Notes under the pieces: model-generated
Databases searched by the model: none
The model's input: only the letters and a program-made list of their open reading frames with translations
What the model was told of the DNA's origin: nothing
Made by a program: the position numbers and the translations under genes
Shown here: positions 20,785 to 41,068 of the stretch, in pieces
Layout of the letters: every line of letters begins with the position of its first letter
Numbering within the stretch: position 1 is the first letter of the stretch
Source: Chthonomonadales bacterium
Lineage (GTDB): Bacteria > Armatimonadota > Chthonomonadetes > Chthonomonadales > CAJBBX01
DNA length: 46,487 nt
NCBI GenBank assembly: GCA_013360745.1
Contig: JABWBA010000019.1
Location: 1 to 46,487 of the forward strand
Reading direction: 5' to 3'

Positions 20785-22050
20785 ATGCGTCGTACTGTCT
20801 TATTTCTCGGCCTGCTCGTCCTCGTGCGCCCGGTGGGCGCCGACGACGGGCCCGAGTTAACTATCGAACAAGCGATTGCGCAGGCGCTGTCCCGCAATCC
20901 GAGGATCTCGGCTGCGCACAGCTCGGCCGACGCGGCCCGACAGGGCGTATCCGCTGCGCGCGCCCTGGCGTCGCCCGAGATCACGCTCGCGCCCGGTCTC
21001 ACGCGGTACGGTTCCGACGAAGAACTGCTCATCGCCCAGCCTCTGGAAATCAGCGGGACGAGAGCGGCGCGCACGGCCGCCGCACGCGCTGAGGCAAGAG
21101 CCGCCGCCGCACGGCTCGATACGGAACGATTAGTTCTGACCGCCGAGACGCGCAAGGCCTACCATAGCCTCGCCGCTCGACGGGAGGCCCTTGCGGTCGC
21201 GCAGGCCATCCTGCAGATCGCCCGTGATCTCGACCATCGCGTGGCCCGATTGATCGAGGAAGGGTCACGCCCGGGCATCGATCGAACCCATGCTTCGATC
21301 GAAGTCGCCCGAGCTCGGGCGGATCTGGCGATCGCCTCCGCAGAAGCCGACGCGGCCCGCGGAACCCTCAACATCCTGATGGGGCTGTCTCCGTCGGAAC
21401 CCATCGGCGCTCTCTCGAAGCTAGAGGACCTTGTTCGTGCGCCTTCCGATGCACACGATGCGAACGCCGGTTCCCGGACCCGGCCGGAAGTGGCGGAAGC
21501 CGTGGCGCAACGAGACGCCGCGCGCCAGGGCGCACGACTGGCCGTCGCGGAGACTCGACCGGACCTCACGGTTCAGTTTCGCGCGACGCGACTGCAGGGC
21601 GGGGTCTCCGAGACCGGTTTCGGGCTTGGCATCGCACTCCCCTTCCTGGATTGGGGCGGACGGTCCGGCCGTGTCCGAGAGGCCTCCGCAGCGGCCCGCG
21701 CCAGGGAGGCCGAGCTGCTGGCGGCGCAAGCCCGGGTGGAAATGGAGATCTTCGAGGCCCAAGCCCGCGTCCACGCGGCCGAGGAGACCGTCGGACAGTA
21801 CCGGGAGACCCTCCTTGGCCAGGCGGATCGACTCCTCAACGGGGCCAGGACCGGGCTGGTCGAAGGCAAGGCCGATATCCTCACCGTCCTCGAAGCCCAG
21901 CGCACCTATCGGTCGGTGCAGACCGAGTACATCGCCGCCCTTGCCGCGCTGGCCGATGCCCGAGCCGAACTCAGCCGCGCGCGGGGACTGATGTCCCCGG
22001 CTGACGATCACGACCAGGCGCCGTCGCCCGCGAAAGGAACGACACGATGA
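20785..22050 (+). CDS. czcC: CzcC-like outer-membrane factor (TolC family)
   Basis: A 421-residue outer-membrane channel subunit of a tripartite metal exporter. A signal peptide (RRTVLFLGLLVLVRPVGA) and two OEP-type repeats of long helices are visible, starting with LTIEQAIAQALSRNPRI and ending with the second-repeat ALADARAELSRARG. CAGGAGGAAT gives a strong ribosome site. The C-terminus is short and histidine-poor except DDHDQ. The stop overlaps the czcB start (ATGA). With CzcB and CzcA it would export divalent cations directly across the outer membrane. The symbol reflects neighbours; the family alone would not give metal specificity. Confidence 0.88.
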   Translation: MRRTVLFLGLLVLVRPVGADDGPELTIEQAIAQALSRNPRISAAHSSADAARQGVSAARALASPEITLAPGLTRYGSDEELLIAQPLEISGTRAARTAAARAEARAAAARLDTERLVLTAETRKAYHSLAARREALAVAQAILQIARDLDHRVARLIEEGSRPGIDRTHASIEVARARADLAIASAEADAARGTLNILMGLSPSEPIGALSKLEDLVRAPSDAHDANAGSRTRPEVAEAVAQRDAARQGARLAVAETRPDLTVQFRATRLQGGVSETGFGLGIALPFLDWGGRSGRVREASAAARAREAELLAAQARVEMEIFEAQARVHAAEETVGQYRETLLGQADRLLNGARTGLVEGKADILTVLEAQRTYRSVQTEYIAALAALADARAELSRARGLMSPADDHDQAPSPAKGTTR

Positions 22051-23726
22051 AGTCCAGGAGCATGGTGATCGCGCTGCTCTGCGCCCTTGCCGGCATCGCG
22101 ATCGGGATCGGCCTCGGCCCCGTAATCCGGGGGCGGGCCCTGCAGGGGCAGACTCCCTCGTCGGAGCACGCCGATGAGCACGCCGACCACGCAGGCCACG
22201 AGGGCGAGGAAGGTCCGATCCAGCTGTCCGAGGAAGCCCGACGCATCGCCGGCATCAAGGTCGACACAGTCCGCAAGGTAAGCATGCCCGCCTTCGTCGA
22301 TGTGCCGGGGACGTTGGAGACGAACCCATCCCGAACCGTCCGCATCACGGCAACGGCGCCGGGCCGGATCACGCGCTTGATGGCCCGACTCGGCAGTCCA
22401 GTCAAAGCCGGACAGACGCTGGCCATACTCGACAGCGCCGAGCTGGCCAAGGCCCATGCCGATGTAGACGCAGCCGAGGCCGACGTGCGCAAGTCGGAAG
22501 CTGCGACACAGGAGGCTCTGGCCGACATCGAGCAGGCGAAAGCCGGAGTGAAGGTCTCTGAGACGGAGCTCGAACACGCACGGGTGCGGCTCAACAGCGC
22601 CGAGACGGCCCTGACGCGGCAGAAGGAACTCGCCGATGCCGGGGCGTTCTCCCAGGCCCCGCTCCAAGCGGCGCAGGCCGAGCTCATCGAAGCCCGAACC
22701 GAACGCCAGCGGGCGGAATCGGAGGCGCAGGCCCATGCGCTCGCTCTCAAGCGCGCCGAACGGCTCTTTCGCGAGGAGCTGATCTCCCGGGGAGAACTGG
22801 AGCAGGCCCAGCTCGAAGTGCGCCACGACGATGCCCAGCTCGAACGCGCCCGCGGACGGGAGGTCCTGGCGGAGAAGGCGGTGGCCCGCGAGAAACGGGT
22901 CTCGGAAGCCAACCTGCTGAACCGGCAGGCGGTGCAGGCGGCCGAAGCCGACCGCCGCGAGGCTCAGGCCGAGGTCCGGACGGCCGAGAGCTCCCTGGCG
23001 CGCGCATCGCAGGATGTCCACCGCTCCCAGCGGGCCTATGACGCCGCCCGAACCGCCCATCGGGGCGCGATAGCGGCGCTGGCCGCGGCACGATCGACGC
23101 TGGCCGCCCTCGAAGGGGACGCGCACGTGCCGGGGACCGGAGGGCTCCTGGCGATCCGATCGCCGATCGCAGGCGTCATCACCGGCGTTCAGGTCACCCT
23201 GGGCGAGGCCGTGGGCAATGCATCGACCCTCTTCGTCGTCGAGAACATGAAGACGCTGCTGGCCGTTGGCAACGTGCCGGAGGCGATGATCGGACCGGTT
23301 CGGATCGGCCAGAAGGTCCGCATCGCCGTGCCTGCCCTGCCGGCCCGGAGCTTCACCGGCGTGGTTCAGAGCATCGCCGGATCGCTCGACCCCAAGACCC
23401 GTTCGCTGGCGGTGCGGGCCGTGGTCGAGAATCCCGACGGCGTGCTGCGGGCCGAGATGTTCGCCAACCTCCAGATCATCACCGGTGACGCGGGGGCGAG
23501 GCTGAGCGTGCCCAACAGTGCGGTGATTACGACAGGCGACACCAGCTACGTGTTCGTCGAGGAGGGAACGGACTTCGTTCGGAGGGAGATCCGGACCGGT
23601 CGAACCTCGGCGGACCATACGGAGGCGCTGAGCGGCCTGAAGGAGGGGGATCGGATCGCCGTAGCCGGCGTCTTCGTGCTCCGAAGCGAGCTCCAGAAAT
23701 CGGAGTTGAAAGGGCATGAGCACTGA
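22047..23726 (+). CDS. czcB: CzcB-like periplasmic adaptor with a long coiled-coil hairpin
   Basis: A 559-residue membrane-fusion protein joining CzcA to CzcC. An N-terminal anchor (SMVIALLCALAGIAIGIGLG) is followed by a histidine/glutamate-rich stretch (HADEHADHAGHEGEEG, residues about 43-58) that could bind metal. The first lipoyl half (GRITRLMARLGSPVKAGQTL) leads into an alanine/glutamate-rich coiled-coil hairpin from about residue 130 to 345, longer than in most CzcB proteins. It is followed by the second lipoyl half (IRSPIAGVITGVQVTLGEAV) and beta-barrel domains. Start and stop overlap both neighbours, so the three efflux genes are translationally coupled. Confidence 0.9.
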   Translation: MKSRSMVIALLCALAGIAIGIGLGPVIRGRALQGQTPSSEHADEHADHAGHEGEEGPIQLSEEARRIAGIKVDTVRKVSMPAFVDVPGTLETNPSRTVRITATAPGRITRLMARLGSPVKAGQTLAILDSAELAKAHADVDAAEADVRKSEAATQEALADIEQAKAGVKVSETELEHARVRLNSAETALTRQKELADAGAFSQAPLQAAQAELIEARTERQRAESEAQAHALALKRAERLFREELISRGELEQAQLEVRHDDAQLERARGREVLAEKAVAREKRVSEANLLNRQAVQAAEADRREAQAEVRTAESSLARASQDVHRSQRAYDAARTAHRGAIAALAAARSTLAALEGDAHVPGTGGLLAIRSPIAGVITGVQVTLGEAVGNASTLFVVENMKTLLAVGNVPEAMIGPVRIGQKVRIAVPALPARSFTGVVQSIAGSLDPKTRSLAVRAVVENPDGVLRAEMFANLQIITGDAGARLSVPNSAVITTGDTSYVFVEEGTDFVRREIRTGRTSADHTEALSGLKEGDRIAVAGVFVLRSELQKSELKGHEH

Positions 23727-26700
23727 TGCTGGATCGCCTGCTGAACTTCAGCCTGACCCAACGGTTTCTCGTGCTTCTCTGCGTCGTCCTGCTGATCGGA
23801 ATGGGCGTGGTCGCCTGGCGCACTCTGCCCCTGGACGCCGTGCCCGATATTACGACGAATCAGGTGGTGATCAACACGACCACCCCGGGCATGGGTCCCT
23901 CCGAAGTGGAGAACCTGGTCACTTTTCCGATCGAAACGGCGCTCGGCGGCCTGCCCGATGTCGAGCACGTTCGGTCCCTTTCGATGTACGGGCTGTCCCA
24001 GGTGACGGTCACCTTCAAAGACCATGTCGACACCTATTTCGCCCGCCAGCTCGTCAACGAGCGGCTCGGGTCGATCGCTGATCAGCTGCCGACGGGCATC
24101 TCGACGCCCAGCATGGGCCCCGTCTCCACAGGCCTCGGCGACATCTTCCAGTACGCCGTCGAGAGCGACAAGCGGAGTCCCATGGAGCTCCGGACTCTCC
24201 AGGACTGGGTGATCCGGCCCCAGATGCGCACCACACCGGGCATCGTCGAGATCAACGCGGCTGGCGGCGAAGAGAAGCAGTACGTCGTCGAAGCGGATCC
24301 GGCAAAGATGCTGGCCCGAGGGGTCTCGCTGCATCAGCTCGAGACGGCTCTGGAATCGAACAACGCCAACGCCGGCGGCGGATTCATCGAAAAGGCGGGC
24401 GAACAGACGATCGTCCGGGGCGTCGGACTCGCCACCTCGCTGGACGATATCCGGCACATCGTCGTCGATGTCGAGCACGGCACGCCCATCTACGTCAAGG
24501 ACATCGCCAACGTGAGGCTCGGCAGTCGGCCCCGCACCGGTCTCGCGACCAGGGATGGGCATGAAGCCGTCATCGCGATCACGCAGATGCTCAAGGGCGC
24601 CAACAGCCGCCAGGTCGCCACCGACGTCCGAGAGCGCTTGACCCGGGTTCAGGAGCAGCTGCCCACCGACGTTCGCCTGACCCCGGTCTACGATCGTGCG
24701 GAACTGGTCAACAACACGGTCGCGACCGTGCGCAAGAGTCTGCTCGAGGGCGGCGTTCTCGTCGTCGCGGTCCTGCTGTTCCTTCTGGGCAACCTGCGGG
24801 CGGCGCTCATCGTGGCCCTTGCGATCCCCCTGTCGATGCTCTTTGCCGTACTCGGGATGCAGCGGTTCGGCATATCGGGCAACTTGATGAGCCTCGGGGC
24901 CATCGACTTCGGCCTGATCGTGGATGGTGCCGTGGTGATGGTCGAAAACGCCGTCCGACGTCTCGCGCTCGCCCGTGAGCACGCCGGACGAACCCTCACC
25001 CGGGCGGAGGTCCGGGGCTATGTCGCGATTGCAGCTCAGGAAGTGGCCCGGCCCGTGGCGTTCGCGGTCGGCATCATCACGGTCGTCTACCTGCCGATCC
25101 TCTCGCTCGAAGGGACCGAAGGGAAGATGTTCCGACCGATGGCGTTCACCGTCGTTTTTGCGCTCATCGGCGCCCTGATCCTCTCTCTGACCGTCGTACC
25201 GGCGCTGGCGAGTCTCGTTCTTTCGCCGAATACCCGGGAGCCGCGCAACGTCGTCATGGAATCGGCATCGAAGGCCTATCGGGCGACCCTGAACGGCGCG
25301 CTCCGCTTCAGGATGATCACGTTCGGCGTCTCCGCCGCCATGGTCGCGGTCGCGCTGCTGCTCCTCACCCGGCTCGGTTCCGAGTTCATCCCGCAGCTGA
25401 ACGAGGGCTCGATGCTCGTACAGCCGGTTCGAATCCGGTCCGCAAGTACCGGGGAGACGATCCGACTCGTAACGGCGGCCGAACGGGCGCTCCGGACCAT
25501 TCCCGAGGTCACCACGGTATTCTCCCGGAGCGGCACCCCCGAGGTCGCCACCGATCCGATGCCGATGAGCATGACCGACTCCTTCATCATGCTCAAGCCT
25601 CGGAGCCAGTGGCGCAAGGGCGTCACGCAGGAGAGCCTGGTGCGCGAGATGGAGGCGAAGCTCAGCGCCGTTCCCGGGCAGGGCTATTCGTTCTCTCAGC
25701 CGATCCAGCTCCGCTTCGCGGAGCTCGTCGCCGGCGTCAAGGCGGACGTCGGCATCAAGGTCTTCGGCGAGGATATGGCCACGCTGAAGCGGCTGGCCGA
25801 CGAGATCGCGGGCGTGATGCGGGGCGTACCCGGCGCCGAGGATGTGAGCGTCGAACAGGTCGACGATATCCCGGTGCTCGAGATACGGCCCGATCGGCGA
25901 GCTATCGCGCGCGTCGGGGTCAACGTATCCGACATCCAGGATTGGGTCGAGACGGCGATGGGCGGCAAGCCCCTCGGGCAGATCATCGAAGGCGACCGCC
26001 GGTTCGATCTCGTAGTGCAGCTGCCCGACGGCCTGCGCCGCGAACCCGATGCGATCCGCGCCCTCCCGATCGCAACGCCGACGGGCGGGGCCGTCACCCT
26101 CGGCAGCCTGGCGTCGGTTCAGGTCGTGCCGTCGCCCGCGCAGATCAGCCGCGAACAGGGCCGCCGCCGCGTCGTGGTGCAGATGAACGTCCGGGGCCGC
26201 GATCTGGCGGGATTCGTCGCAGCCGCCCGGGAGGCGATCAAACAGAAGGTGACGCTCCCCGAAGGGGTCTACCTCGATTGGGGCGGGCAGTTCGAGAACC
26301 TCCAGCGCGCCGAAGCCCGTCTGCTCATCGTGGTCCCGACGGCCCTCGGCCTCATCTTCGTTCTATTGTTCATGACGTTCGGGTCGATTCGGCAGGCCCT
26401 CCTGATCTTTACGGGCGTTCCGCTCGCCGTGACGGGCGGCATCTTCTCGCTCTGGCTGCGGGGCCTGCCGTTCTCCATCTCGGCCGGAGTCGGATTCATC
26501 GCACTGTCCGGCGTCGCGGTGCTCAACGGCGTCGTCATGGTCTCGGCCATCAACGCCTTGAGACAGGAAGGTACGAAGGTGGCCATCGCCGTCCGCGATG
26601 GGGCAGCGGTTCGTCTTCGGCCAGTGCTGATGACGGCGATGGTTGCCGCGCTGGGCTTTGTCCCGATGGCCCTCGCGACAGGCCCCGGTTCCGAAGTTCA

Positions 26701-26812
26701 GCGTCCTCTGGCCACCGTTGTCGTTGGCGGCATCCTATCGAGCACGCTCCTATCGCTGCTGGTCCTGCCGGCCCTCTACCTGCAGTTTGAAGGCCGCAGA
26801 CAGGAGGATTGA
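23726..26812 (+). CDS. czcA: CzcA-like heavy-metal RND efflux pump
   Basis: A 1028-residue inner-membrane proton/cation antiporter of the HME-RND family, of standard length. The ATG overlaps the czcB stop (TGATG). Family motifs are LPLDAVPDITTNQV near the N-terminus, PIETALGGLP, and the TM4 signature DFGLIVDGAVVMVEN. Its acidic residues D394, D400 and E407 have the same spacing as the essential D402/D408/E415 of Cupriavidus CzcA. This DFG...VDGAV form is typical of the Co/Zn/Cd group and differs from the Cu/Ag pump CusA. The nearby ZIP and ZntA-type genes support zinc-type cations. It converges with the ZIP gene, seven bases apart. Confidence 0.95.
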   Translation: MLDRLLNFSLTQRFLVLLCVVLLIGMGVVAWRTLPLDAVPDITTNQVVINTTTPGMGPSEVENLVTFPIETALGGLPDVEHVRSLSMYGLSQVTVTFKDHVDTYFARQLVNERLGSIADQLPTGISTPSMGPVSTGLGDIFQYAVESDKRSPMELRTLQDWVIRPQMRTTPGIVEINAAGGEEKQYVVEADPAKMLARGVSLHQLETALESNNANAGGGFIEKAGEQTIVRGVGLATSLDDIRHIVVDVEHGTPIYVKDIANVRLGSRPRTGLATRDGHEAVIAITQMLKGANSRQVATDVRERLTRVQEQLPTDVRLTPVYDRAELVNNTVATVRKSLLEGGVLVVAVLLFLLGNLRAALIVALAIPLSMLFAVLGMQRFGISGNLMSLGAIDFGLIVDGAVVMVENAVRRLALAREHAGRTLTRAEVRGYVAIAAQEVARPVAFAVGIITVVYLPILSLEGTEGKMFRPMAFTVVFALIGALILSLTVVPALASLVLSPNTREPRNVVMESASKAYRATLNGALRFRMITFGVSAAMVAVALLLLTRLGSEFIPQLNEGSMLVQPVRIRSASTGETIRLVTAAERALRTIPEVTTVFSRSGTPEVATDPMPMSMTDSFIMLKPRSQWRKGVTQESLVREMEAKLSAVPGQGYSFSQPIQLRFAELVAGVKADVGIKVFGEDMATLKRLADEIAGVMRGVPGAEDVSVEQVDDIPVLEIRPDRRAIARVGVNVSDIQDWVETAMGGKPLGQIIEGDRRFDLVVQLPDGLRREPDAIRALPIATPTGGAVTLGSLASVQVVPSPAQISREQGRRRVVVQMNVRGRDLAGFVAAAREAIKQKVTLPEGVYLDWGGQFENLQRAEARLLIVVPTALGLIFVLLFMTFGSIRQALLIFTGVPLAVTGGIFSLWLRGLPFSISAGVGFIALSGVAVLNGVVMVSAINALRQEGTKVAIAVRDGAAVRLRPVLMTAMVAALGFVPMALATGPGSEVQRPLATVVVGGILSSTLLSLLVLPALYLQFEGRRQED

Positions 26813-26819
26813 GGGTGCG

Positions 26820-27635
26820 TCATCCCAGGGCGACGTCGAGGACCATCATCAACCCGAAGCCGATCATCGTGGCGATGGTCACGGTGTCGATGTGCGCTTC
26901 GTGGCGCTGGGACTCGGGAATGAGCTCCTCCACCACGACGAAGATCATCGCCCCCGCTGCGAACGCGAGCGCGAAGGGGAGGATGTGAAGCATGTGGAGG
27001 ACGAACGCGGCGCCGGCAACTCCGGCGAGAGGCTCCACCATGCCTGAGGCCTGGCCCAGCAGAAAACTCCGCCACCGTCCCATCCCTTCGCGCCGAAGGG
27101 GCAGCGATACGGCCGCCCCTTCCGGGAAGTTCTGCAGCCCGATGCCGACCGCGAGCGCCACAGCGCTGCCCACCGTCGCTGCGGGCAGCTTTGCCGCCAC
27201 CGCGCCGAAAGCGACGCCCACCGCCAGCCCCTCCGGGATGTTGTGGAGCGTGATGGCGATGACGAGCAGGGTGCTCCGCTGCCACGAGGTCTGGATCCCC
27301 TCGGAGCGGTCGGAGGCGAGGCCCGGATGGACATGCGGCAGAAATCGATCGGTGAGCCGCATGAAGAGACCGCCGCCCAGAAAACCGGTAACCGCGGTGA
27401 GCCAGGCCACGTGGCCCATCTGCTCGGCCATCTCGATGGCGGGGGCGAGAAGCGACCAGAAGCTCGCCGCGATCATCACGCCCGCGGCGAAGCCGAGCAT
27501 CGAGTCCATGACCTTGGGCTGGACCTGCTTCGTGAAGAAGACCAGGCCCGCGCCGACGGCCGTCACGCCCCAGGTGAACAGCGTCGCGACCAGCGCCTGC
27601 ACCATCGGGTTCAGATTGCCCAGCGCCTCAAGCAT
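26820..27635 (-). CDS. ZIP family metal transporter (GufA-like)
   Basis: A 271-residue membrane protein with about eight helices. The ATG at 27635 follows GAGAGGCGG; a longer frame has no site and would overlap the ZntA-type gene's upstream region. Metal-site motifs are HNIPEGLAVG in TM4 and GLQNFPEGAAVS in TM5, the pattern of the GufA subfamily. A short loop HVHPG lies between TM3 and TM4. ZIP proteins usually bring zinc or other divalent cations into the cytoplasm. It is flanked by the CzcA exporter gene (convergent) and a Zn/Cd ATPase gene (divergent), so import and export of the same metal may be balanced at this locus. Confidence 0.92.
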   Translation of the reverse strand: MLEALGNLNPMVQALVATLFTWGVTAVGAGLVFFTKQVQPKVMDSMLGFAAGVMIAASFWSLLAPAIEMAEQMGHVAWLTAVTGFLGGGLFMRLTDRFLPHVHPGLASDRSEGIQTSWQRSTLLVIAITLHNIPEGLAVGVAFGAVAAKLPAATVGSAVALAVGIGLQNFPEGAAVSLPLRREGMGRWRSFLLGQASGMVEPLAGVAGAAFVLHMLHILPFALAFAAGAMIFVVVEELIPESQRHEAHIDTVTIATMIGFGLMMVLDVALG

Positions 27636-27672
27636 CGATCCGCCTCTCAACGAACGATTACGAATGAGCGAG

Positions 27673-27785
27673 AGTGTACCGAAAAGGCAGCATCGAGCGC
27701 ACCGCAGGCCCGATTCGCCCGCCCGCCGCACCGGCTGCGGCAGGCGTCGGGCTGGACCTGCTGGTCCGCCGGTCAGAGGTACACT
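27673..27785. promoter_or_regulatory. Divergent promoter region between the ZIP and ZntA-type genes
   Basis: Two copies of GGTACACT face opposite ways: minus strand at 27673-27680, 37 bases before the ZIP start, and plus strand at 27778-27785, 33 bases before the ATPase start. Each fits a -10 element and the shared GGTANN(A/C)T motif. A small dyad GGACC-TGCT-GGTCC (27754-27767) precedes the plus-strand copy and may be a regulator site. No -35 consensus is evident. Confidence 0.45.
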
Positions 27786-27818
27786 GAGCCGGCCCGAGGG
27801 GCTTCCGCCAGCGAACCG

Positions 27819-30026
27819 ATGAAGCAATCGACGTTCTATATCGCCAGGATGGACTGCCCCACCGAGGAGCAGCTGATCCGCAATCGGCTGCGCGCCATGG
27901 ACGGGGTCGATGAGCTCTCCTTCGACCTTCTTCAGCGGCGGCTGACCATCACCCACCGTCTCGACGATGACAAGAGCCTGCTCGCGGCGCTCCGGTCGCT
28001 CGGCATGGAGCCCCGCATGCTCGCGGATGCGGAGAGTGAGCGGGGCGGCGAGATCGATCACCCCGGACGTCGCACGGGCATCATCCTGATGGCCCTATCG
28101 GGCGTCGCCGCGGCCGCCTCCGAGGCCGTCGTCTGGATCGGCGCCAGTGAGCGCTCCGCCGGCGTCCTCGCCCTGGCCCTTCTGTCCATGCTCCTCGGGG
28201 GGCGCGATACGATCCGCAAAGGGTGGAACGCCATCCGGACGGCGACCCTGAACATCAACTTCCTGATGATGTTCGCGATCGCGGGCGCCATGGCCATCGG
28301 TCAGTGGCCTGAAGCGGCGATGGTGACCTTTCTCTTCGGCGTGGCCGAGATGATCGAGGGCCACTCCCTCGAACGGGCGCGCAACGCGGTTCGATCGCTG
28401 ATGGAGATGACCCCGGAGACCGTCCGCCGCCGCGATGCGAACGGCGCCTGGCGTGAGGAGCCCGCCGGGGAGGTGCCGGTCGGCGCCATTGTGTGGGTGC
28501 GTCCGGGCGAACGGGTGCCGCTCGACGGGGTCGTCACATCCGGCCAGTCCTATGTGAATCAGGCGCCGATAACCGGCGAAAGCCTGCCGGTGGAGAAACG
28601 ACCAGGCGATACGGTGTTCGCCGGTACCGTCAACGAGCGGGGCTCCTTCGAGTTCGAGGTTACCGCGAACAAGGGCAATACGACGCTGGCTCGGATCATC
28701 CGCACCGTGCAGGACGCGCAGGGCCAACGTGCCCCTACCCAGCGATTCATCGATCGGTTCGCCGTCTTTTACACCCCGGCCATGGTGGCCCTCGCCATCA
28801 CGGCAGCTGCCGTTCCGCCGCTGCTCCTGGGGCAGCCGGCGCTTCCGTGGATCTATCGAGCGCTGGTGCTGCTCGTGATTGCCTGTCCGTGCGCCCTCGT
28901 GATCTCGACACCGGTGACCATCGTCAGCGGGTTAGCGGCTGCAGCGCGCTGCGGCATCTTGATCAAGGGCGGCGCGTACCTCGAAGCTGGGCGGAACCTC
29001 AAGGTCATCGCCCTCGACAAGACGGGCACATTGACCCACGGCAGGCCCGAGGTTACCGACGTGATGACGCTCAACGGCGCCGATCCTGACCTCGCCCTGC
29101 AGATCGCCGCCAGCCTGGACGCCCATTCCGAGCATCCCATCGCGTCGGCCATCGTCGCTCGCTGGACCGGCGCGAACCATACCAACCCCGGGTCCGCTGA
29201 ACCGGAACGAATGGAGGCGATCGTCCGGTCGGGCCAGCTCCTGCCGGTGGACGGGTTCGAGTCGATCACCGGCCGGGGTGTCCGGGGATCCGTGGATGGA
29301 CGGTTGTACTATGTCGGCAATCACCGATTGACGGAGGACAACGGCGTCTGCGGCCCACACGTCGAGGCGCTTCTGGAGAAGCTGGAACAGCAGGGCAAGA
29401 CGACGGTCGTACTGACCGACGCGAATGCGGCGATCGCCGTGATGGGCGTAGCCGACACGGTGCGAACGACGAGCGTCGAAGCCGTGGATCGGCTGCACCG
29501 CCTCGGGGTCCAGACCGTGATGCTCACCGGCGACAACCACACGACGGCCAGAGCCATCGCCGAGCGAGTCGGCATCGACGATGTCCGGGGCGATCTGCTC
29601 CCCGAGGACAAACTGGCGGCCGTCAGCGACCTTCTCGCCCGATACGGCGCGGTAGGCATGGTAGGGGACGGCATCAACGACGCTCCGGCCCTTGCGCGGG
29701 CGACCATCGGCATCGCCATGGGGGCCGCAGGCACGGACACCGCGCTCGAAACGGCCGATGTCGCGCTGATGCAGGACGACCTGCGCGGGCTTCCCGATTA
29801 TCTTCTCCTCTGTCGTTTCGCCTCCCGCGTCCTGAAGCAGAACATCGCCCTCGCCATCGGCATCAAAGCCGTCTTTTTCGCCCTCGCGGTGGCAGGCCTG
29901 GCGACGCTGTGGATGGCGGTGTTCGCCGACATGGGCGCGAGCCTGCTGGTGGTGTTCAACGGGCTGCGGACGCTCGGCTTCGCCAAATCGCCGGCGCGCC
30001 GGACAGGGAGCATTGCCGCTCCGTAG
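27819..30026 (+). CDS. zntA: Zn/Cd/Pb-type P1B ATPase (ZntA/CadA-like)
   Basis: A 735-residue cation-exporting ATPase. The ATG at 27819 is preferred; the frame open from 27243 is antisense to the ZIP gene and is an artefact. The N-terminal metal-binding domain starts FYIARMDCPTEEQLIRNRL, a form with one cysteine instead of CxxC. Core motifs are TGES (actuator), CPC at 356-358 in the metal channel, DKTGT with phosphorylated D400, the HP region near SEHPIASAI, and MVGDGINDAPAL. The last helices carry NIALAIGIKAVFF and ADMGASLLVVFNGLRTL, where the lysine and aspartate mark the zinc/cadmium/lead subgroup. It exports these metals to the periplasm for CzcCBA to clear. Confidence 0.95.
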   Translation: MKQSTFYIARMDCPTEEQLIRNRLRAMDGVDELSFDLLQRRLTITHRLDDDKSLLAALRSLGMEPRMLADAESERGGEIDHPGRRTGIILMALSGVAAAASEAVVWIGASERSAGVLALALLSMLLGGRDTIRKGWNAIRTATLNINFLMMFAIAGAMAIGQWPEAAMVTFLFGVAEMIEGHSLERARNAVRSLMEMTPETVRRRDANGAWREEPAGEVPVGAIVWVRPGERVPLDGVVTSGQSYVNQAPITGESLPVEKRPGDTVFAGTVNERGSFEFEVTANKGNTTLARIIRTVQDAQGQRAPTQRFIDRFAVFYTPAMVALAITAAAVPPLLLGQPALPWIYRALVLLVIACPCALVISTPVTIVSGLAAAARCGILIKGGAYLEAGRNLKVIALDKTGTLTHGRPEVTDVMTLNGADPDLALQIAASLDAHSEHPIASAIVARWTGANHTNPGSAEPERMEAIVRSGQLLPVDGFESITGRGVRGSVDGRLYYVGNHRLTEDNGVCGPHVEALLEKLEQQGKTTVVLTDANAAIAVMGVADTVRTTSVEAVDRLHRLGVQTVMLTGDNHTTARAIAERVGIDDVRGDLLPEDKLAAVSDLLARYGAVGMVGDGINDAPALARATIGIAMGAAGTDTALETADVALMQDDLRGLPDYLLLCRFASRVLKQNIALAIGIKAVFFALAVAGLATLWMAVFADMGASLLVVFNGLRTLGFAKSPARRTGSIAAP

Positions 30027-33826: not shown

Positions 33827-35005
33827 CTACCCGCCCAGCTCCACACACCGCTTGCGGTAGTGGAGGTAGTTGTCCAGAGAGACCTCCTCGGGCACGCCGT
33901 GATCGCAGGTCGGAATATACCCGCCTCTCGACCGCATCGTCGGCAGGATCCTCTCGACCATGGCGTCGATCTCTTCTGTCGTCGTTGCCAACACCCGTTT
34001 GTCGATGCCGCCGAACATCGCCAGTCCGGGATACTGGCGGCCGAGCTCGACGACGTCGGAGCCCGCCGCCACCTCGAACGGCGACATCGCGTCCATACCG
34101 ATCTCCAGATAGACGGGGATGGCTGGTCGCGGATCGCCATCCGTGTCTATATGGATATAGAGATGCCGGCTCCGGTCCAGCTGACGGGACCGTATGTTGG
34201 CGATCAGCTGCTGATAGTAGGGAAAGAGGAACGCCCGCATCATCGAGGGTGAGATCAACAGGCCGTGGTTGTAGCAGATATCCTCGGCGATGTAGAGCTC
34301 GTCCAGCGTCAGCCGCTCCTGATGGCGGGCGATCACCGCGTCGGCCAGTTCGAACCATGCCTCCATGCAGCTGTGGATGAGCTCGGGCTGGTCCAGAAAA
34401 GCGTAGAGTAGATCCGCCGGCCCGATCAGGCTCCGGAGGTACATGAAGCCGCCGATGACATGCTGGCTGATCATCATCCCGCGCGCGGCCTGTTCCTGAA
34501 CCCGGGGCAGCCACGCGGCCATATCCGCATACCGTTCGGGCGAGGCGGGATCCAGCCGCCACCGTACATTCTCGTGCCAGGAGCGCAGGTCCGATACGGG
34601 ATGATGCAGATATTCCGGCATAAAGCCGTCCCGTCGACCTTTGAAGTAGAGGACGTGGCGGCCGGCGACATCCTGAACCACCTCGTGGTCGCCCCGATCT
34701 TCGATGACGACCTCCTCATACCCCGGTGAGAACGGGGCTTCGCACCAGCCCAGGCCGCCCAGGCCCGTCCGTCCGGGAGGATCGTAGTCGAAGAACTCGG
34801 CAAAGTCGACCGTCCGATCGAGCCCTTGCTCATACCATCGGTCCAGACAGTAGTAGCCGAACTCCCTGCGGACCAGACGGAGGCCCGGCGTTCGCGCGTA
34901 GGTGTCCCTCAGGCTCCGCGCCGCTTCGACCATCGTCTCCCGCGGCGGAAGGGAATGAATGCCATCGGATGCGATTGTAGACGGACCCTGAACGAGTTCT
35001 GTCAT
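33827..35005 (-). CDS. Uroporphyrinogen decarboxylase-like protein, second paralogue
   Basis: A 392-residue cytoplasmic TIM-barrel protein of the URO-D superfamily, the last gene of the four-gene minus-strand cluster. The ATG at 35005 is preceded by an in-frame GTG that could also start it. Landmarks are VIGGFMYLRSLIGPADLLYAF, LYIAEDICYNHGLLISP, HIDTDGD, FGGIDKRVLA and PTCDHGVPEEVSLDNY. The zinc-binding H-x-C of corrinoid methyltransferases is H-I-D here and the HemE RQAGRY motif is missing, as in the paralogue at 7065. Its C-terminal cysteine (PTCDHG) is kept. The 133-base gap to the DUF6259 gene upstream shows no clear terminator. Confidence 0.85.
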   Translation of the reverse strand: MTELVQGPSTIASDGIHSLPPRETMVEAARSLRDTYARTPGLRLVRREFGYYCLDRWYEQGLDRTVDFAEFFDYDPPGRTGLGGLGWCEAPFSPGYEEVVIEDRGDHEVVQDVAGRHVLYFKGRRDGFMPEYLHHPVSDLRSWHENVRWRLDPASPERYADMAAWLPRVQEQAARGMMISQHVIGGFMYLRSLIGPADLLYAFLDQPELIHSCMEAWFELADAVIARHQERLTLDELYIAEDICYNHGLLISPSMMRAFLFPYYQQLIANIRSRQLDRSRHLYIHIDTDGDPRPAIPVYLEIGMDAMSPFEVAAGSDVVELGRQYPGLAMFGGIDKRVLATTTEEIDAMVERILPTMRSRGGYIPTCDHGVPEEVSLDNYLHYRKRCVELGG

Positions 35006-35138
35006 CACCGTTGCCCCGTGTAATCACGCAGTGTAGCACCGCGAGGGGCGTTTCTCTCTCCCTTCCGATTCCATCGATTAGTCGGGCTCACTACTACCAG
35101 CGGTGTTGGATCGAGGCGGCCCGGGAGCGGCGCACGCG

Positions 35139-38100
35139 CTAGCGATTCGCGCGGTCGAGGCTGAGCAGATCCCGCTGTTCGTCCACGAGCAGTCGGAAGG
35201 TCGGCGCAACCCGGCGCGCCTCCGTCTCGATCGCCCGAACGGTGCGCAGCGGCGCCTCCCACTGGGCTCGATCCGGCGTCGTAGTCAGGCGGGGATTGAA
35301 GTCGAGAAGGTTCGGGAAACAACCCTCCAGACGGACGCCCGACAGGCCCGCTGCGGCCAGATCCGCGATACGCGCCGACAGCCAGCGGCGCATCTCCGGG
35401 TGGCCGATATTGACAAAGAGGCGCCGTTCGCCCGCCGCCAGCGTCTCCGCCGGCGTCCTGCCGGAGCCCCATCCAAGAACGGTTTGAGGAACCCCCCATC
35501 GATCCTCATACCGGAACCGATGGAGGAAGCTGCGCCATAGCGGGCTCTTCGTCGAGACCGGGTTGATTCGAACGTCGGCGATGAGCTCGATGCCAGCATC
35601 CCGACACGCCGCTGCAGCGCGGCGCAAGCCCCCCCATCCGCCCAGAGCGGCCGCAGGCTCGATGGTCGGCACGCCGTCATCGCCGATCCCCTCCTCCCAG
35701 TCGGTCAACCTCCAGACCGACTGGTCCGTGTGCGCCCTCCCGCGCGCCTCGCCGGCGATCGCATCGAACGCCACGCGGCCGAGCGTCCGAACCGGCAGTT
35801 CGGCGCGCTGCTCCGCGGCCCGTCCCAGCGAGGCCAGAAAGGCGCCGTACCGCTCGGCTCCCTGGTCGGCTCGGTCGGAGGAGGCGTGGAGCTCCACCGG
35901 CGCACACGTAAACGTCTGGCCCGCCGGATGGTAGGGCACGTGCACCCACGAGAGCCGAACGCCCGCCGGCCTTCCGTCGAGCTCCGACGGTTTCGGCCAG
36001 TTGCCCGAAGGCCGGGGGCCGGATATCCCGGGGCTCATCTCAAGATGCAGGATTTTGAACCGGGCGACGGGATCGTGGGCCCCGATATAGAACCCTCGCT
36101 TCAGCCGTTCCGAACGGAGCATCGCCCACGGAGCGTAGAGCGTCGCGGGATAGGTGAAGTACTGTTCCGGTCCGAACACGCCCAGCCACGACATCGATAG
36201 GAACTGCTGGAAGGGTCTCGATGCGGCGTATCCCTCCGGCCGCGGCGTCACCAGTTCCGTCATCTGCCTGAGGTGCGCCGACTCACCGAGCCCTTGAAGG
36301 CCGCCGAAGATCGGCGCGTACACTTCGCCGACGGGATGCCGCGTCCGATTGCGCACGCTGGTTTCGAACCGGACGCCGTCCCCGCTGCGGAGGGCTCGCA
36401 TCACGACGTCCACGTCCCAACGCCGCCCATCCTCGGACGTCAGAGGGCCGAGCCACGACAGCTCCAGACCCCCTGGTACGGCCCGATGCGAGGTCAAGCG
36501 CTGCAGCCGTCCCCGAATATAGTTGCCCTCGTGGTTCACCCAGGAATCCCGCGATCCGACGCCCACAGCATCGCGGATCGGCAGGCTGAATCGCCAGTTG
36601 TCCGAGAGGCGCGGCTCCCGGATCATATCGAGCCTGGCTTGTTTGTCGAACACGCGCACCAGAGTGCCGTTGGCACGGCCGAACTCGAGCCGCAGCCGTC
36701 CGGAGTCGAGGACGATGGTTCCGGGCACGGAGCGGACGGGTCGTCGCTCCTCGGGCGGTGTTCGCCAGAGCTGCACATCGTCGATGCAGATCATCGAGAA
36801 GGTCGATTCGGGAGCGTCATCGACGGCTTCAATATAGACCCGGCGCCCCCGATACCCGTCGGCATCGAGGACGAGCCGCGTGAACGTCGTCGTATTGGGC
36901 GTATAAGCGCGACTGATCTCCTCGCCTTCTTCCGTCTTCAGCGTGACGTAGTTCCAGCGGTTGGACGTGCGGCCGAGGATATCCGACCAACCGGCGACCC
37001 TCAGCGCAACGCCGTCGGCATCGAGCGTGAACACCGGCGAGCGGAGCCGTCCGGTCCGCTCCTCCCCACCTTTGCCGCTCCAGGCGAATCGTCTGCCCTG
37101 CCAACCGACATACCATCCGCCGGCGGAGTTGTCATCGACGGTCCAGTTCGGGTCTGCGATCCAGCCGTCGAGCGTGCCGTTCTCAAAATCGGTGTTCCCG
37201 AACGGGAGCCGGGCGGCTGGAGACCGCGGCGCGATCGGGTTACGTGCGGCGCGCGGCGTGATCTCGGCGCCCGCAAGCCGGACCTCTTCGACGAAGACGA
37301 GCCCTTCGGCCGGAGCTGTGATCTGCGCCGGCAGCATAACGCCGTACGGCCTGGCGCCCGGCACATGGACCCGTGCCGTACGGATGCCGCTGCCATGCCA
37401 TCCGGCAAGCGTAAAGCCAGCCGGACCTTCGTCCGAGTTCGTGATGATCGCGATCCGGCGGCCCGGACCTCGATCCCGATAGACCTTCATCGCGCACGAG
37501 GATGGGAGCTCGACGACGCGCGCCGCACCCGGGGAATCCGGCTCGCCGAAGACCAGCTGCGCGTTGAAACGATCTCGGATCGCCTTGACCTTCTGGATGT
37601 AGACGCTCAGACGCCGCCAGCTCGGTTCATCCATGGAACGCTGGAAGTGATACGGCGCGACCATGAGCGCATGCCCTTCGCGCATTGCGTTGTTGACGGC
37701 CGCGAAGTCATACGGCTGGTATACAGCGGCCGTCTCGAGCGTCTCGGGGAAGACGGCCTTGACCGCGGTCATGTTGCTCGCCCACCAGGTCGCCGTCCCC
37801 ACCTGCAGCGTCCGATCCCAGTTGCACTCGTTGGAGATCCGCCACGCGGGGTTGATGGCCCGGCACGTGCGGCTCATCGTCGTCAGAAACCGGATCGCGC
37901 TCTCCCATGTCGCCGTGTCTGGGGGCAGCGGGGCTGCGGGATTGAGGTCCAGCAAGGCCGGGAACATCTTGTCCACATGGACGCCGTCGGCTCCGATCGA
38001 GGCCAGTCGCTGGAACCAGGTCAGCAGACGTCGGGTGTACCGTTCGTGCGCCGGATCCAGGAACGACATCAGCGGCGCCGTGAGCCCCATTCGGGACGCG

Positions 38101-39341
38101 AGCGTGCCCATGCCCCATCCCGCGATCCAGGTCGCATCCCCAGAGGACGTCTGCGCCTCGTATCGGCCCAGCTCCCGTCGGAACCATTCGTGATCGAGCA
38201 TGGCTGGCTGGAGATTGACGAAGAAGTAGACGCGGACTCCCATGGCATGGCACGCGCGGATCGCTCGTCGGAGGTCTTCATACGAGCCCAGTCGCGGATC
38301 GGGCTCGTAGCAGGGGTATCCTCCGTCGTGGCCCCCCTTCTGCCATCCGGCAAGCTGGATCGAACGGAGGCCGTAGCGGCGGGCGGCCGCCGCCAGTCGG
38401 GGCACATCCTTGAACCGATAGTTGATGTTCCCCTCCGGCAGCATCAGCATCGTCATCTGGAAGAACGTCTCCCGCCGAATCCAATCGCGGTGCGGGTCCT
38501 CGATCCCGAACGTCCGGATGAACCAGTCGCGATAGATGCGCCCGGCGCCGGGAAGTCCGCCCGTATGGTACCGGAACACGGCGGCGCAGCCCGAGAAGCT
38601 CGAGCTGGCCCTGACGTAGGGGAGATGCACCACCCTGGCGACCAGATCGCCGTCCAGCTCGGCCACCCGCAGGAGCTTGATCCTCGCCGTCGTCTCGTGG
38701 GCCCCGAAGTAGAGCCCTGCAGGCCCGCCGATGTCGACGTACGCCATGGGCAGGCCGCCCGGATAGGGGTGCGAAAAGTCCCCGAACGGCAGGGTCAGTG
38801 GGCGTCGGACCGCGCCGGAGGATCCCACGACCTCACCCTTCAGGCGGGCCAGACCGCCAACCGCCGGGTAGTGCACTTCGAGGATCGTCCAATCGGAGCG
38901 ATTCACCAGCGACAGCCAGACACGCATCTCCGAGCCGACGAGCGCATAGGTCACGCGAACGTCGATCGGATACCCCTGTCCGGTGGTGTCCCGAAGGCCC
39001 GTCGTCCACGCTGCCGTCGCTCGGGCGGCCCCTATGGACCATCGGGGCGGGGCCTGCTCCGCACCCGCGATCGTGCGGAGCGCGCCTTCCCGGTTCCGCA
39101 GGATCAGCCGAAACGACTCCGGGGTTGTTGCGGTGCACGACGCCGACGCCCCCGCACCGCTGTCCGAAAAGGAGAGGATCCCTCCCGTATCCCGTGCGAC
39201 CTCTAGGTGAACCCCCGCCGAAGTAAGGCGGATCGGCGAAGCCGACTGGACTCCGCCGACCGCCTGGCTTACGATCGCGGCCAGCAGGGCGAACGAGGAC
39301 AATGCGCGATGGACGATGCAGGAGCGTCTGACAACGCGCAT
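35139..39341 (-). CDS. Very large exported protein with two DUF6259-like modules
   Basis: A 1400-residue protein with a signal peptide (RALSSFALLAAIVSQAVGG). Residues about 36-690 form a first module: an N-terminal beta-sandwich, GLYFGAHETTARIK (209-222), then a TIM barrel with YFFVNLQPAM, DGVHVDKMFPALLDLNP (D457) and SNECNWDR (E505). Residues about 712-858 look like a jelly-roll carbohydrate-binding insert (FENGTLDGWIADPNW). Residues 874-1400 repeat the first module at an offset of about 874-882: GFYIGAHDPVARFK (1083-1096) and GVRLEGCFPNLLDFNP, with D457 replaced by E1339. The second barrel stops early. The fold suggests a glycan-acting hydrolase; the substrate is unknown. ATG at 39341; a TTG three bases upstream is possible. 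Confidence 0.8.
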   Translation of the reverse strand: MRVVRRSCIVHRALSSFALLAAIVSQAVGGVQSASPIRLTSAGVHLEVARDTGGILSFSDSGAGASASCTATTPESFRLILRNREGALRTIAGAEQAPPRWSIGAARATAAWTTGLRDTTGQGYPIDVRVTYALVGSEMRVWLSLVNRSDWTILEVHYPAVGGLARLKGEVVGSSGAVRRPLTLPFGDFSHPYPGGLPMAYVDIGGPAGLYFGAHETTARIKLLRVAELDGDLVARVVHLPYVRASSSFSGCAAVFRYHTGGLPGAGRIYRDWFIRTFGIEDPHRDWIRRETFFQMTMLMLPEGNINYRFKDVPRLAAAARRYGLRSIQLAGWQKGGHDGGYPCYEPDPRLGSYEDLRRAIRACHAMGVRVYFFVNLQPAMLDHEWFRRELGRYEAQTSSGDATWIAGWGMGTLASRMGLTAPLMSFLDPAHERYTRRLLTWFQRLASIGADGVHVDKMFPALLDLNPAAPLPPDTATWESAIRFLTTMSRTCRAINPAWRISNECNWDRTLQVGTATWWASNMTAVKAVFPETLETAAVYQPYDFAAVNNAMREGHALMVAPYHFQRSMDEPSWRRLSVYIQKVKAIRDRFNAQLVFGEPDSPGAARVVELPSSCAMKVYRDRGPGRRIAIITNSDEGPAGFTLAGWHGSGIRTARVHVPGARPYGVMLPAQITAPAEGLVFVEEVRLAGAEITPRAARNPIAPRSPAARLPFGNTDFENGTLDGWIADPNWTVDDNSAGGWYVGWQGRRFAWSGKGGEERTGRLRSPVFTLDADGVALRVAGWSDILGRTSNRWNYVTLKTEEGEEISRAYTPNTTTFTRLVLDADGYRGRRVYIEAVDDAPESTFSMICIDDVQLWRTPPEERRPVRSVPGTIVLDSGRLRLEFGRANGTLVRVFDKQARLDMIREPRLSDNWRFSLPIRDAVGVGSRDSWVNHEGNYIRGRLQRLTSHRAVPGGLELSWLGPLTSEDGRRWDVDVVMRALRSGDGVRFETSVRNRTRHPVGEVYAPIFGGLQGLGESAHLRQMTELVTPRPEGYAASRPFQQFLSMSWLGVFGPEQYFTYPATLYAPWAMLRSERLKRGFYIGAHDPVARFKILHLEMSPGISGPRPSGNWPKPSELDGRPAGVRLSWVHVPYHPAGQTFTCAPVELHASSDRADQGAERYGAFLASLGRAAEQRAELPVRTLGRVAFDAIAGEARGRAHTDQSVWRLTDWEEGIGDDGVPTIEPAAALGGWGGLRRAAAACRDAGIELIADVRINPVSTKSPLWRSFLHRFRYEDRWGVPQTVLGWGSGRTPAETLAAGERRLFVNIGHPEMRRWLSARIADLAAAGLSGVRLEGCFPNLLDFNPRLTTTPDRAQWEAPLRTVRAIETEARRVAPTFRLLVDEQRDLLSLDRANR

Positions 39342-39355
39342 CAATACATATCCCT

Positions 39356-41068
39356 CTATGATCCGGTCCGGCTCGCTGCCTCACCGACCAGCCGCAGCGC
39401 CAGTTCGCCTCGGGTGCGACAGTCCGGTTCGACGGAGCCCATCTCCGCCGAAGCGGGCTCGTCCGCCCGGAACTCGATGGCGGTCTCCTCCGGCCATATT
39501 CCCCGAATCCCGAGCCATTGCGCGGCCTTCCAGACAGCCGATCCCGGGCTGAGATCGCCCCACCAATAGATTGGTGCGCCGTCGGCCAGCAGCCGTTCCT
39601 GGAGCCGACGGAGCAGCGGCTCGCGAGTCACCACATCCTGCACGTCGAGATCCAGCGACGCTGCGAGGGCTCCCAGCGCTCCGGCGGCTTCGCCCACGGC
39701 CCACTCCACGGGATGCAGTCGAAAGGCCCCGGAGGCGAGATGGGTAACGCCGAGGTTCTTGCAGGCGGCGATGAGGTTGCGGAGTCGGATCGGAGCCAGA
39801 GCCCCCGCTGGGATCTGGTAGGGCTGGGTCTCGAGAAACCGACCGGGTTCCTCGGATCCCCCCTCGTGCACATCGAGCCAGTAATGGCCGATCCCGACGG
39901 AGTCGGCCTCAGGACGGGCTCTCGGTCCCGGTTGGTGCTGGCGACCCTGCCCGTCCCGATGTACGATGTCCTGCTCTCGGACAGTCTTGAGGGCGACCAA
40001 CCGCCGTGACTCGCGGATATAGGGCTCCGGCGGCAGTCCATCCGACGTATCGAACCAATCGCCCCTAAGCCGCAGTTCCGGATATCCGACCGTCCCCGCG
40101 CGGTCCTCCCTTGGGCATTCGGTCTGAAGCCAGTAGAGATAGCCGAGCGACACGCGGCGCGCCCGGGCCAGGTGCGCCGCAGCGGCAGCGCTCGAATCCG
40201 AAGGGAGCGCGCCGCCCCTGTAGTCATTGGCGCCGGTGTTGATCATCGCGATGTCCCTCGGGAAGGCTGGATCGTCGAAGTTCTCCGAGGCGATCACTCG
40301 CCGGTAGGACCACCAGCCGAACTCGCCGAACATGCTGCGCATCGCTCCATCGAGCACGTGATAGCGCTGGAGCTCCTTGAGATCGGCGTAATCCTCGGGC
40401 GGTCTGATCGTATGGTCCTCGCCGAACGGCCGCAGCTCGACGGCAAAGGGGACGGTGCAGGGCTGGATCCAATCCGGCCTCGGCACGGGGGGCGCATCCG
40501 GCTCGCCGGTCTCCTCGATCCCCTCCGCTCCAAGCCGATACTCCGCGCCGGTGATCGGCAGCAGGTCGCCGAGGTCGGTGGCATCGAGGACCATGCGGGG
40601 CCGTACCGTCATCGTCTCTCCGGATCCGTGCATCAGCCGTACCGTCTCGATCCGATCCGAGACGATCTCCGCGCCCACGGCCCGCACGCCCCGCATGACG
40701 GTTAGGTTCGCGTACGCGTTCAGGCGTTCCCGGAGCAAACCCTCCGCCACCCGGGGCTCGACCGAGATTCGGCTGACCCAGCATCGGCCCGGGTTCAGCA
40801 GCGGGTCGGCGCTCGCAGCGGGGGATAGCCGATGGTTCCTTGCGTAGTGCGCGCGGATGTCCCGCCGCAGCGACTGGTAGGACGCCGTCGCGCCGCCCAT
40901 CTCGATCCACCGGTTCTCGTCCGGCGTGCAGACGCCCTGAGCGGTGAGCTGGCCGCCCACCCAATCCCCTTCGATGGCCAGAAGGACATCGGCTCCGCAG
41001 CGGGCGGCGGAGAGCGCCGCGGCTGCACCGCCGAGGCTGCCGCCGACGATGAGAATGTCGGCGTGCAG
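39356..41068 (-). CDS. FAD-dependent oxidoreductase with an apparent non-AUG start
   Basis: A protein of about 570 residues of the FAD_oxidored type. The nucleotide-binding start reads HADILIVGGSLGGAAAALSA, with GGSLGG as the Rossmann loop, then EGDWVGGQLTAQGV and the later VLDATDLGDLLP and LIAACKNLGVTHLA segments. No ATG, GTG or TTG lies between the in-frame TGA upstream and this motif. The only options are CTG at 41068 (used here) or ATT at 41077; the first GTG (40960) would delete the FAD site. The CTG lies four bases after the stop of the upstream gene, so re-initiation is plausible. A sequencing error is the alternative. It likely oxidises a sugar or related metabolite. Confidence 0.8.
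   Translation of the reverse strand: MHADILIVGGSLGGAAAALSAARCGADVLLAIEGDWVGGQLTAQGVCTPDENRWIEMGGATASYQSLRRDIRAHYARNHRLSPAASADPLLNPGRCWVSRISVEPRVAEGLLRERLNAYANLTVMRGVRAVGAEIVSDRIETVRLMHGSGETMTVRPRMVLDATDLGDLLPITGAEYRLGAEGIEETGEPDAPPVPRPDWIQPCTVPFAVELRPFGEDHTIRPPEDYADLKELQRYHVLDGAMRSMFGEFGWWSYRRVIASENFDDPAFPRDIAMINTGANDYRGGALPSDSSAAAAAHLARARRVSLGYLYWLQTECPREDRAGTVGYPELRLRGDWFDTSDGLPPEPYIRESRRLVALKTVREQDIVHRDGQGRQHQPGPRARPEADSVGIGHYWLDVHEGGSEEPGRFLETQPYQIPAGALAPIRLRNLIAACKNLGVTHLASGAFRLHPVEWAVGEAAGALGALAASLDLDVQDVVTREPLLRRLQERLLADGAPIYWWGDLSPGSAVWKAAQWLGIRGIWPEETAIEFRADEPASAEMGSVEPDCRTRGELALRLVGEAASRTGS

Follow-up and report, generated by a model that had tools for sequence, protein, structure and literature searches.

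A duplicated DUF6259-like glycoside hydrolase of Armatimonadota and Planctomycetota that may have become a catalytic/non-catalytic pair with one shared active site

The window analysed here (46,487 nucleotides, positions 1-46,487 of contig JABWBA010000019.1, assembly GCA_013360745.1, from a Chthonomonadales bacterium) encodes a large exported protein in which two glycoside hydrolase-like modules, M1 and M2, flank a CBM-like domain (Table 1). The locus raises the question of how this arrangement evolved and what M2, which lacks the catalytic residues of M1, contributes to the protein. The first-pass annotation of the sequence proposed an internal duplication within one protein, leaving one active module and one decayed, perhaps substrate-binding, module.

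Table 1. Features of the two-module protein and its neighbors in the window
Feature	Position	Strand	Basis or remark
Two-module exported glycoside hydrolase-like protein (M1 + CBM-like + M2), 1400 aa	35139..39341	-	ORF, self-comparison; start codon ATG at 39341
Signal-like N-terminus, residues 1-34	39240..39341	-	sequence read by eye
M1 beta-sandwich, residues ~36-280	38502..39236	-	alignments; arm shortened, 24-residue insert lost
M1 catalytic TIM barrel, residues ~286-600, DUF6259-like	37542..38486	-	profile matches, alignment
D457, candidate nucleophile	37971..37973	-	kept in 17/17 M1, 4/4 single-module relatives and all outgroups covering the site
E505, candidate acid/base	37827..37829	-	conserved in the same rows as D457
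M1 loop 333-349 (WQKGGHDGGYPCYEPDP)	38295..38345	-	approximate counterpart of DagB dimer-interface loop 342-357
M1 C-terminal beta domain, residues ~601-690	37272..37541	-	alignment
CBM-like jelly-roll domain, residues 716-860	36762..37196	-	accompanies M2 in most relatives
M2 beta-sandwich, complete, residues 876-1166	35844..36716	-	AlphaFold2 model, Foldseek, alignment
M2 protruding arm, residues 1019-1082	36096..36287	-	position of the DagB segment entering the other monomer's active site
M2 GNWPKP insert, residues 1103-1126	35964..36035	-	shared by M2 with the single-module relatives; M1 has lost it
M2 half barrel, residues 1183-1400, strands 1-5	35142..35795	-	catalytic positions E1339, D1387
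URO-D-like gene, downstream	33827..35008	-	Pfam match
FAD-dependent oxidoreductase (PF12831), upstream	39356..40960	-	stop ~14 nt before the ATG of the two-module gene

Genes for URO-D-like proteins are also found near the M1/M2 pair in two relatives (L034 and L071). A 977-aa frame antisense to the gene (36273-39206, plus strand) is most likely a side effect of the high G+C content of the coding sequence. Elsewhere in the window (20785-30026) lies a metal-efflux-like cluster consisting of an OEP, a HlyD-type adaptor, an AcrB-type pump and a P-type ATPase with an HMA domain.

The homology of the two halves, for which the first-pass annotation had named self-alignment as the test, is unequivocal: blastp aligned residues 111-502 with ~962-1384 (E 4e-24, 26% identity), and the Smith-Waterman self-alignment of ~37-503 with ~876-1385 scored 397, compared with a mean of 66 for shuffled sequences (SD 11, maximum 115). 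The motifs that had been paired, GLYFGAHE with GFYIGAHD and VHVDKMFPALLDLNP with VRLEGCFPNLLDFNP, align as claimed, and the barrel aspartate is indeed lost from the second copy, where E1339 pairs with D457. The proposed offset of ~874-882 holds further along the protein (873-882) and fails at the N-terminus, where it is ~839; similarly, the first copy does extend to ~690, but its homology with the second copy stops already near residues 503-515 because the second copy ends there. The second copy was modeled with AlphaFold2 (pLDDT 86, pTM 0.86; strands assigned by eye): the beta-sandwich is full whereas the barrel comprises only strands 1-5, with the chain ending about 16 residues past strand 5, so the barrel is incomplete as had been supposed. 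The possibility that a frameshift or misassembly conceals the remainder of this barrel was ruled out: in the fused relatives G007 and G010 the protein terminates at almost the same position, and the next gene follows only 130 bp beyond the stop codon. The jelly-roll-like domain expected between the copies was located, with a weak match to CBM_4_9 that stayed below the curated family score (best E 0.29, in three of seven rows). This domain is also present in many further large proteins of Armatimonadota (e.g., L009, L010, and L011).

The assignment of the module to a DUF6259-type family (PF19773; curated Pfam cutoff 28.7 bits) is supported through close relatives that pass the cutoff, which the window protein itself does not. 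The latter gave no DUF6259 match at E<=1 and only sub-threshold Pfam matches, the best being to DUF5696; six of seven M1 rows match DUF6259 (best E 2.7e-7), and the cutoff is exceeded by three single-module proteins (L074, L120, and L121) and three pair proteins (L119, L070, and L033), to which the window M1 is homologous across the whole barrel according to full-length profile matches and alignment. Among proteins of known structure, the best sequence match is GH129 NagBb (5WZQ; E 9.6e-4), which spans only 42 residues; with Glyco_hydro_101 also below its cutoff, sequence similarity to GH129/GH101 does not reach the family level. Foldseek with the M2 model retrieved DagB (5OPQ) as the best match (E 1.8e-17, 12% identity), along with NagBb and GH36, and a joint model of M1, the CBM-like domain and the M2 sandwich matched GH101, GH36, DagB, and NagBb. 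These structural matches place the protein in the sandwich plus TIM barrel type of alpha-galactosidase-like enzymes, and by analogy with the GH129/GH101/GH36-like fold the substrate is probably an alpha-linked galactose-type sugar.

Relatives were found by scanning genome contigs with an alignment query (a single-protein query gave none) and span two phyla, Armatimonadota and Planctomycetota. For all 17 M1 examined, M2 lies directly downstream in the same orientation, either as an adjacent gene or within a fusion. The same fused protein as in the window is present, at ~54% identity, in G007 and G010; further fusions combine M1 with CBM and sandwich (G249), with the sandwich without CBM (G292 and G294) or with a truncated-barrel M2 without CBM (G702), and G233, which is frameshifted and runs off its contig, seems to be fused as well. 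Two adjacent genes occur in G004, where the second encodes CBM and a complete barrel, in G291, where both barrels are complete and there is no CBM, and in G006, G009, G011, G232, and G293, where the second gene encodes CBM and sandwich only; G219, where the contig ends within the second gene, and the frameshifted G252 resemble this last type. The CBM-like domain is absent from several pairs (L029, L033, L035, and L119). In five of the eight separate pairs with readable distances (L023, L024, L025, L026, and L034), the ATG of M2 overlaps the M1 stop codon by 4 nt; the same overlap is possible in L029 and L071 with TTG or GTG starts, later ATGs being also present, and a gap of 288 nt separates the two genes in L036. 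Most of the separate M2 genes encode a signal-like N-terminus of their own.

Several loci show irregularities. The otherwise intact fused relative in G007 contains an in-frame TGA near the M1 start (L022:5854-5856), which could be a sequencing error, a real stop or recoding. Frameshifts in the M1 barrel of L072/L037 and L073/L038 (in L072 also in the M2 sandwich) are probably assembly errors in fragmented MAGs. In G065 (L099, 5291-7083, minus strand), all that is left of M1 is a partial sandwich, directly followed by a CBM that is also partial and by an intact M2 sandwich, possibly a decayed pair or a chimera.

In trees built from the sandwich sequences, M1 and M2 each form one clade (support 99/98 and 100/97), and both clades persist when the columns of the arm, the insert and the Trp-containing loop are removed or when the barrel is added (100/100). 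The single-module proteins L121 and L122 branch outside both (100/99), and L074 and L120 are placed close by with weak support. A recent internal duplication is thus ruled out by the trees, and the first-pass idea of duplication inside one protein has to be replaced: judging from tree topology and architectures, the copies are ancient paralogs of single origin that are separate genes in many relatives and were fused secondarily. Fused and separate forms are intermingled, so fusion either occurred repeatedly or was reversed.

Since their divergence, the two paralogs have undergone reciprocal losses. All 17 M1 retain the aspartate and the glutamate corresponding to D457 and E505, for which no residue-level match to NagBb or GH101 was obtained, and have an insert of only 2-6 aa and an arm of 41-58 aa; in M2, the insert measures 23-24 aa and the arm 62-71 aa. 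Among the six M2 barrels, the aspartate is lost from five, which have E, I, V, Q or K instead, and persists in G004, and the glutamate is replaced by aspartate in all six; the barrel is missing altogether from eight of the 14 M2 with a visible end, two further M2 running off contigs. The four single-module relatives combine both sets of features, with Asp and Glu present, an insert of 23-27 aa and an arm of 64-69 aa (52 aa in L122). More distant outgroups have the long arm without the insert, so the shortening of the M1 arm is derived and the insert arose within the group.

Conservation follows the same mirrored pattern: it is about 0.73-0.74 in the M1 barrel vs 0.57 in the M1 sandwich; it reaches 0.76 in the M2 insert and is not especially high (0.60) for the M2 arm as a whole. 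M2 evolves under purifying selection: between G010 and G007, dN/dS is 0.03 for the M1 barrel, 0.11 for the M2 sandwich and 0.17 for the M2 half barrel, all rough values given that dS is about 1, near saturation, and among the M2 sandwiches of G006, G009, and G011 it is 0.16-0.26. These ratios contradict pseudogene decay of M2. The description of the protein as one active and one decayed module therefore applies to M2 only as regards the missing catalytic residues and the truncated barrel; M2 is maintained by selection, keeps sandwich features that M1 lost, and accompanies every M1 examined.

Because M2 has kept surface pieces that M1 has lost, a single active site is probably formed by the two halves together. 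DagB provides the template for such an arrangement: its dimer is held together by two helices that project from the sandwich of one monomer and by loops 342-357 and 430-459 in the barrel of the other, and the essential Asp202, carried by the sandwich of the monomer with these helices, extends into its partner's active site (PMC5698469). In a weak profile alignment (E 0.11) that does not extend into the arm, DagB Pro161 corresponds to a conserved proline just before the arm, which puts Asp202 within the arm counterpart, on no identifiable residue; further profile comparisons equated no M2 residue with Asp202. On the M1 side, loops 333-349 and 402-420, at approximately the DagB interface positions, have mean conservation of 0.88 and 0.79 against 0.73 for the barrel, and no other 15-residue stretch of that barrel is as well conserved as 338-352. 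The layout of the DagB dimer, the position of the arm and these conserved loops are the reasons for proposing that M2 supplies the arm for the M1 active site. The joint AlphaFold2 model is too poor (pTM 0.56) to reveal an M1-M2 interface, and none was observed.

Taken as a whole, these observations incline us, with some confidence, to a scenario in which a duplicated enzyme became a fixed asymmetric pseudo-dimer. The ancestor would have been a single-module DUF6259-type glycoside hydrolase, with an arm-bearing beta-sandwich and a TIM barrel, and probably a homodimer whose arms reached into each other's active sites. Following tandem duplication, the copies would have specialized: M1 retained the catalytic barrel while its insert disappeared and its arm became shorter; M2 retained arm and insert, gained the Trp-containing loop and usually the CBM-like domain, and lost first the catalytic residues and then half of the barrel or the whole of it. 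The product would be an obligate pseudo-dimer that is secreted either from two translationally coupled genes or, in the window, as a single fused chain. In this pseudo-dimer M1 would cut, with D457 as the putative nucleophile and E505 as the putative acid/base, and the arm of the M2 sandwich would complete the M1 substrate pocket in trans. The stronger proposition, that complementary losses have permanently divided one active site between paralogous halves, even where the whole M2 barrel is gone, and that the halves were re-fused, apparently several times, has in our estimate about an even chance of being correct.

M2 might instead bind glycan or act as a scaffold. If, as the first-pass annotation suggested, M2 and the CBM-like domain only hold the polysaccharide near an M1 whose active site is complete, the presence of this domain before M2 in most relatives and the retention of a conserved sandwich without catalysis would be readily understood; such a role leaves unexplained, however, why in every M1 the insert has been lost and the arm has become shorter although single-module relatives keep both, as well as the invariant linkage, the fixed order and the 4-nt overlaps, and it sits poorly with the pairs devoid of CBM, so we regard it as unlikely. 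Slightly less likely still appears a structural chaperone or dimerization partner that stabilizes M1 and contributes nothing to its active site. The obligate linkage and the purifying selection would fit this role, as would the poor prediction of parts of the M1 barrel, including active-site loops, in the joint model; yet the arm, long in M2 and short in M1, belongs to the region that in DagB penetrates the active site of the partner, and conservation is high in the M1 barrel loops that correspond to the DagB interface. That M2 is a remnant in the course of being lost, which its C-terminal position makes tolerable, would agree with the progressive truncation of the barrel, the loss of catalytic residues and the broken module 1 in G065, but is very improbable in view of the low dN/dS values and the persistence of the sandwich beside every M1 across two phyla.

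The group forms a natural series, from the single enzyme through pairs with full barrels, half barrels and no barrel to fusions. It illustrates how an obligate catalytic/non-catalytic pair may evolve out of a homodimer whose subunits share an active site. M1-type enzymes expressed alone may seem inactive, and subfunctionalized active sites become directly testable in an unstudied family. Our literature searches returned nothing mentioning DUF6259 and no description of such a split glycoside hydrolase.

Among other enzymes, a catalytic paralog is known to be paired with a dead one in some cases. The bacterial luciferase LuxAB is an obligate heterodimer of a catalytic and a non-catalytic paralog, born by duplication, with one dead TIM barrel; it belongs to an unrelated family, and in the present group the dead barrel has been physically lost in part of the members. 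The DUF6259 proteins have the same M1 barrel family and differ from the proteins described here by the division into two modules or two genes with a barrel-less or half-barrel partner. GH129 NagBb and the GH101 alpha-N-acetylgalactosaminidases are structural neighbors, alignable by sequence only over the short stretch mentioned above, and no pseudo-enzyme partner of theirs is described in the literature consulted. The GH36 alpha-galactosidases, in one of which (AgaA) an N-terminal loop shapes the positive subsites (PMC5094572), are structural neighbors as well, and are homo-oligomers without an M1/M2 split. The alpha-1,3-(3,6-anhydro)-D-galactosidase DagB/ZGAL_3152 (5OPQ; 8RZG-8RZK) likewise combines a sandwich, a TIM barrel and a C-terminal beta domain, but is a symmetric homodimer of identical subunits, whereas here two diverged paralogs with reciprocal losses take their place.
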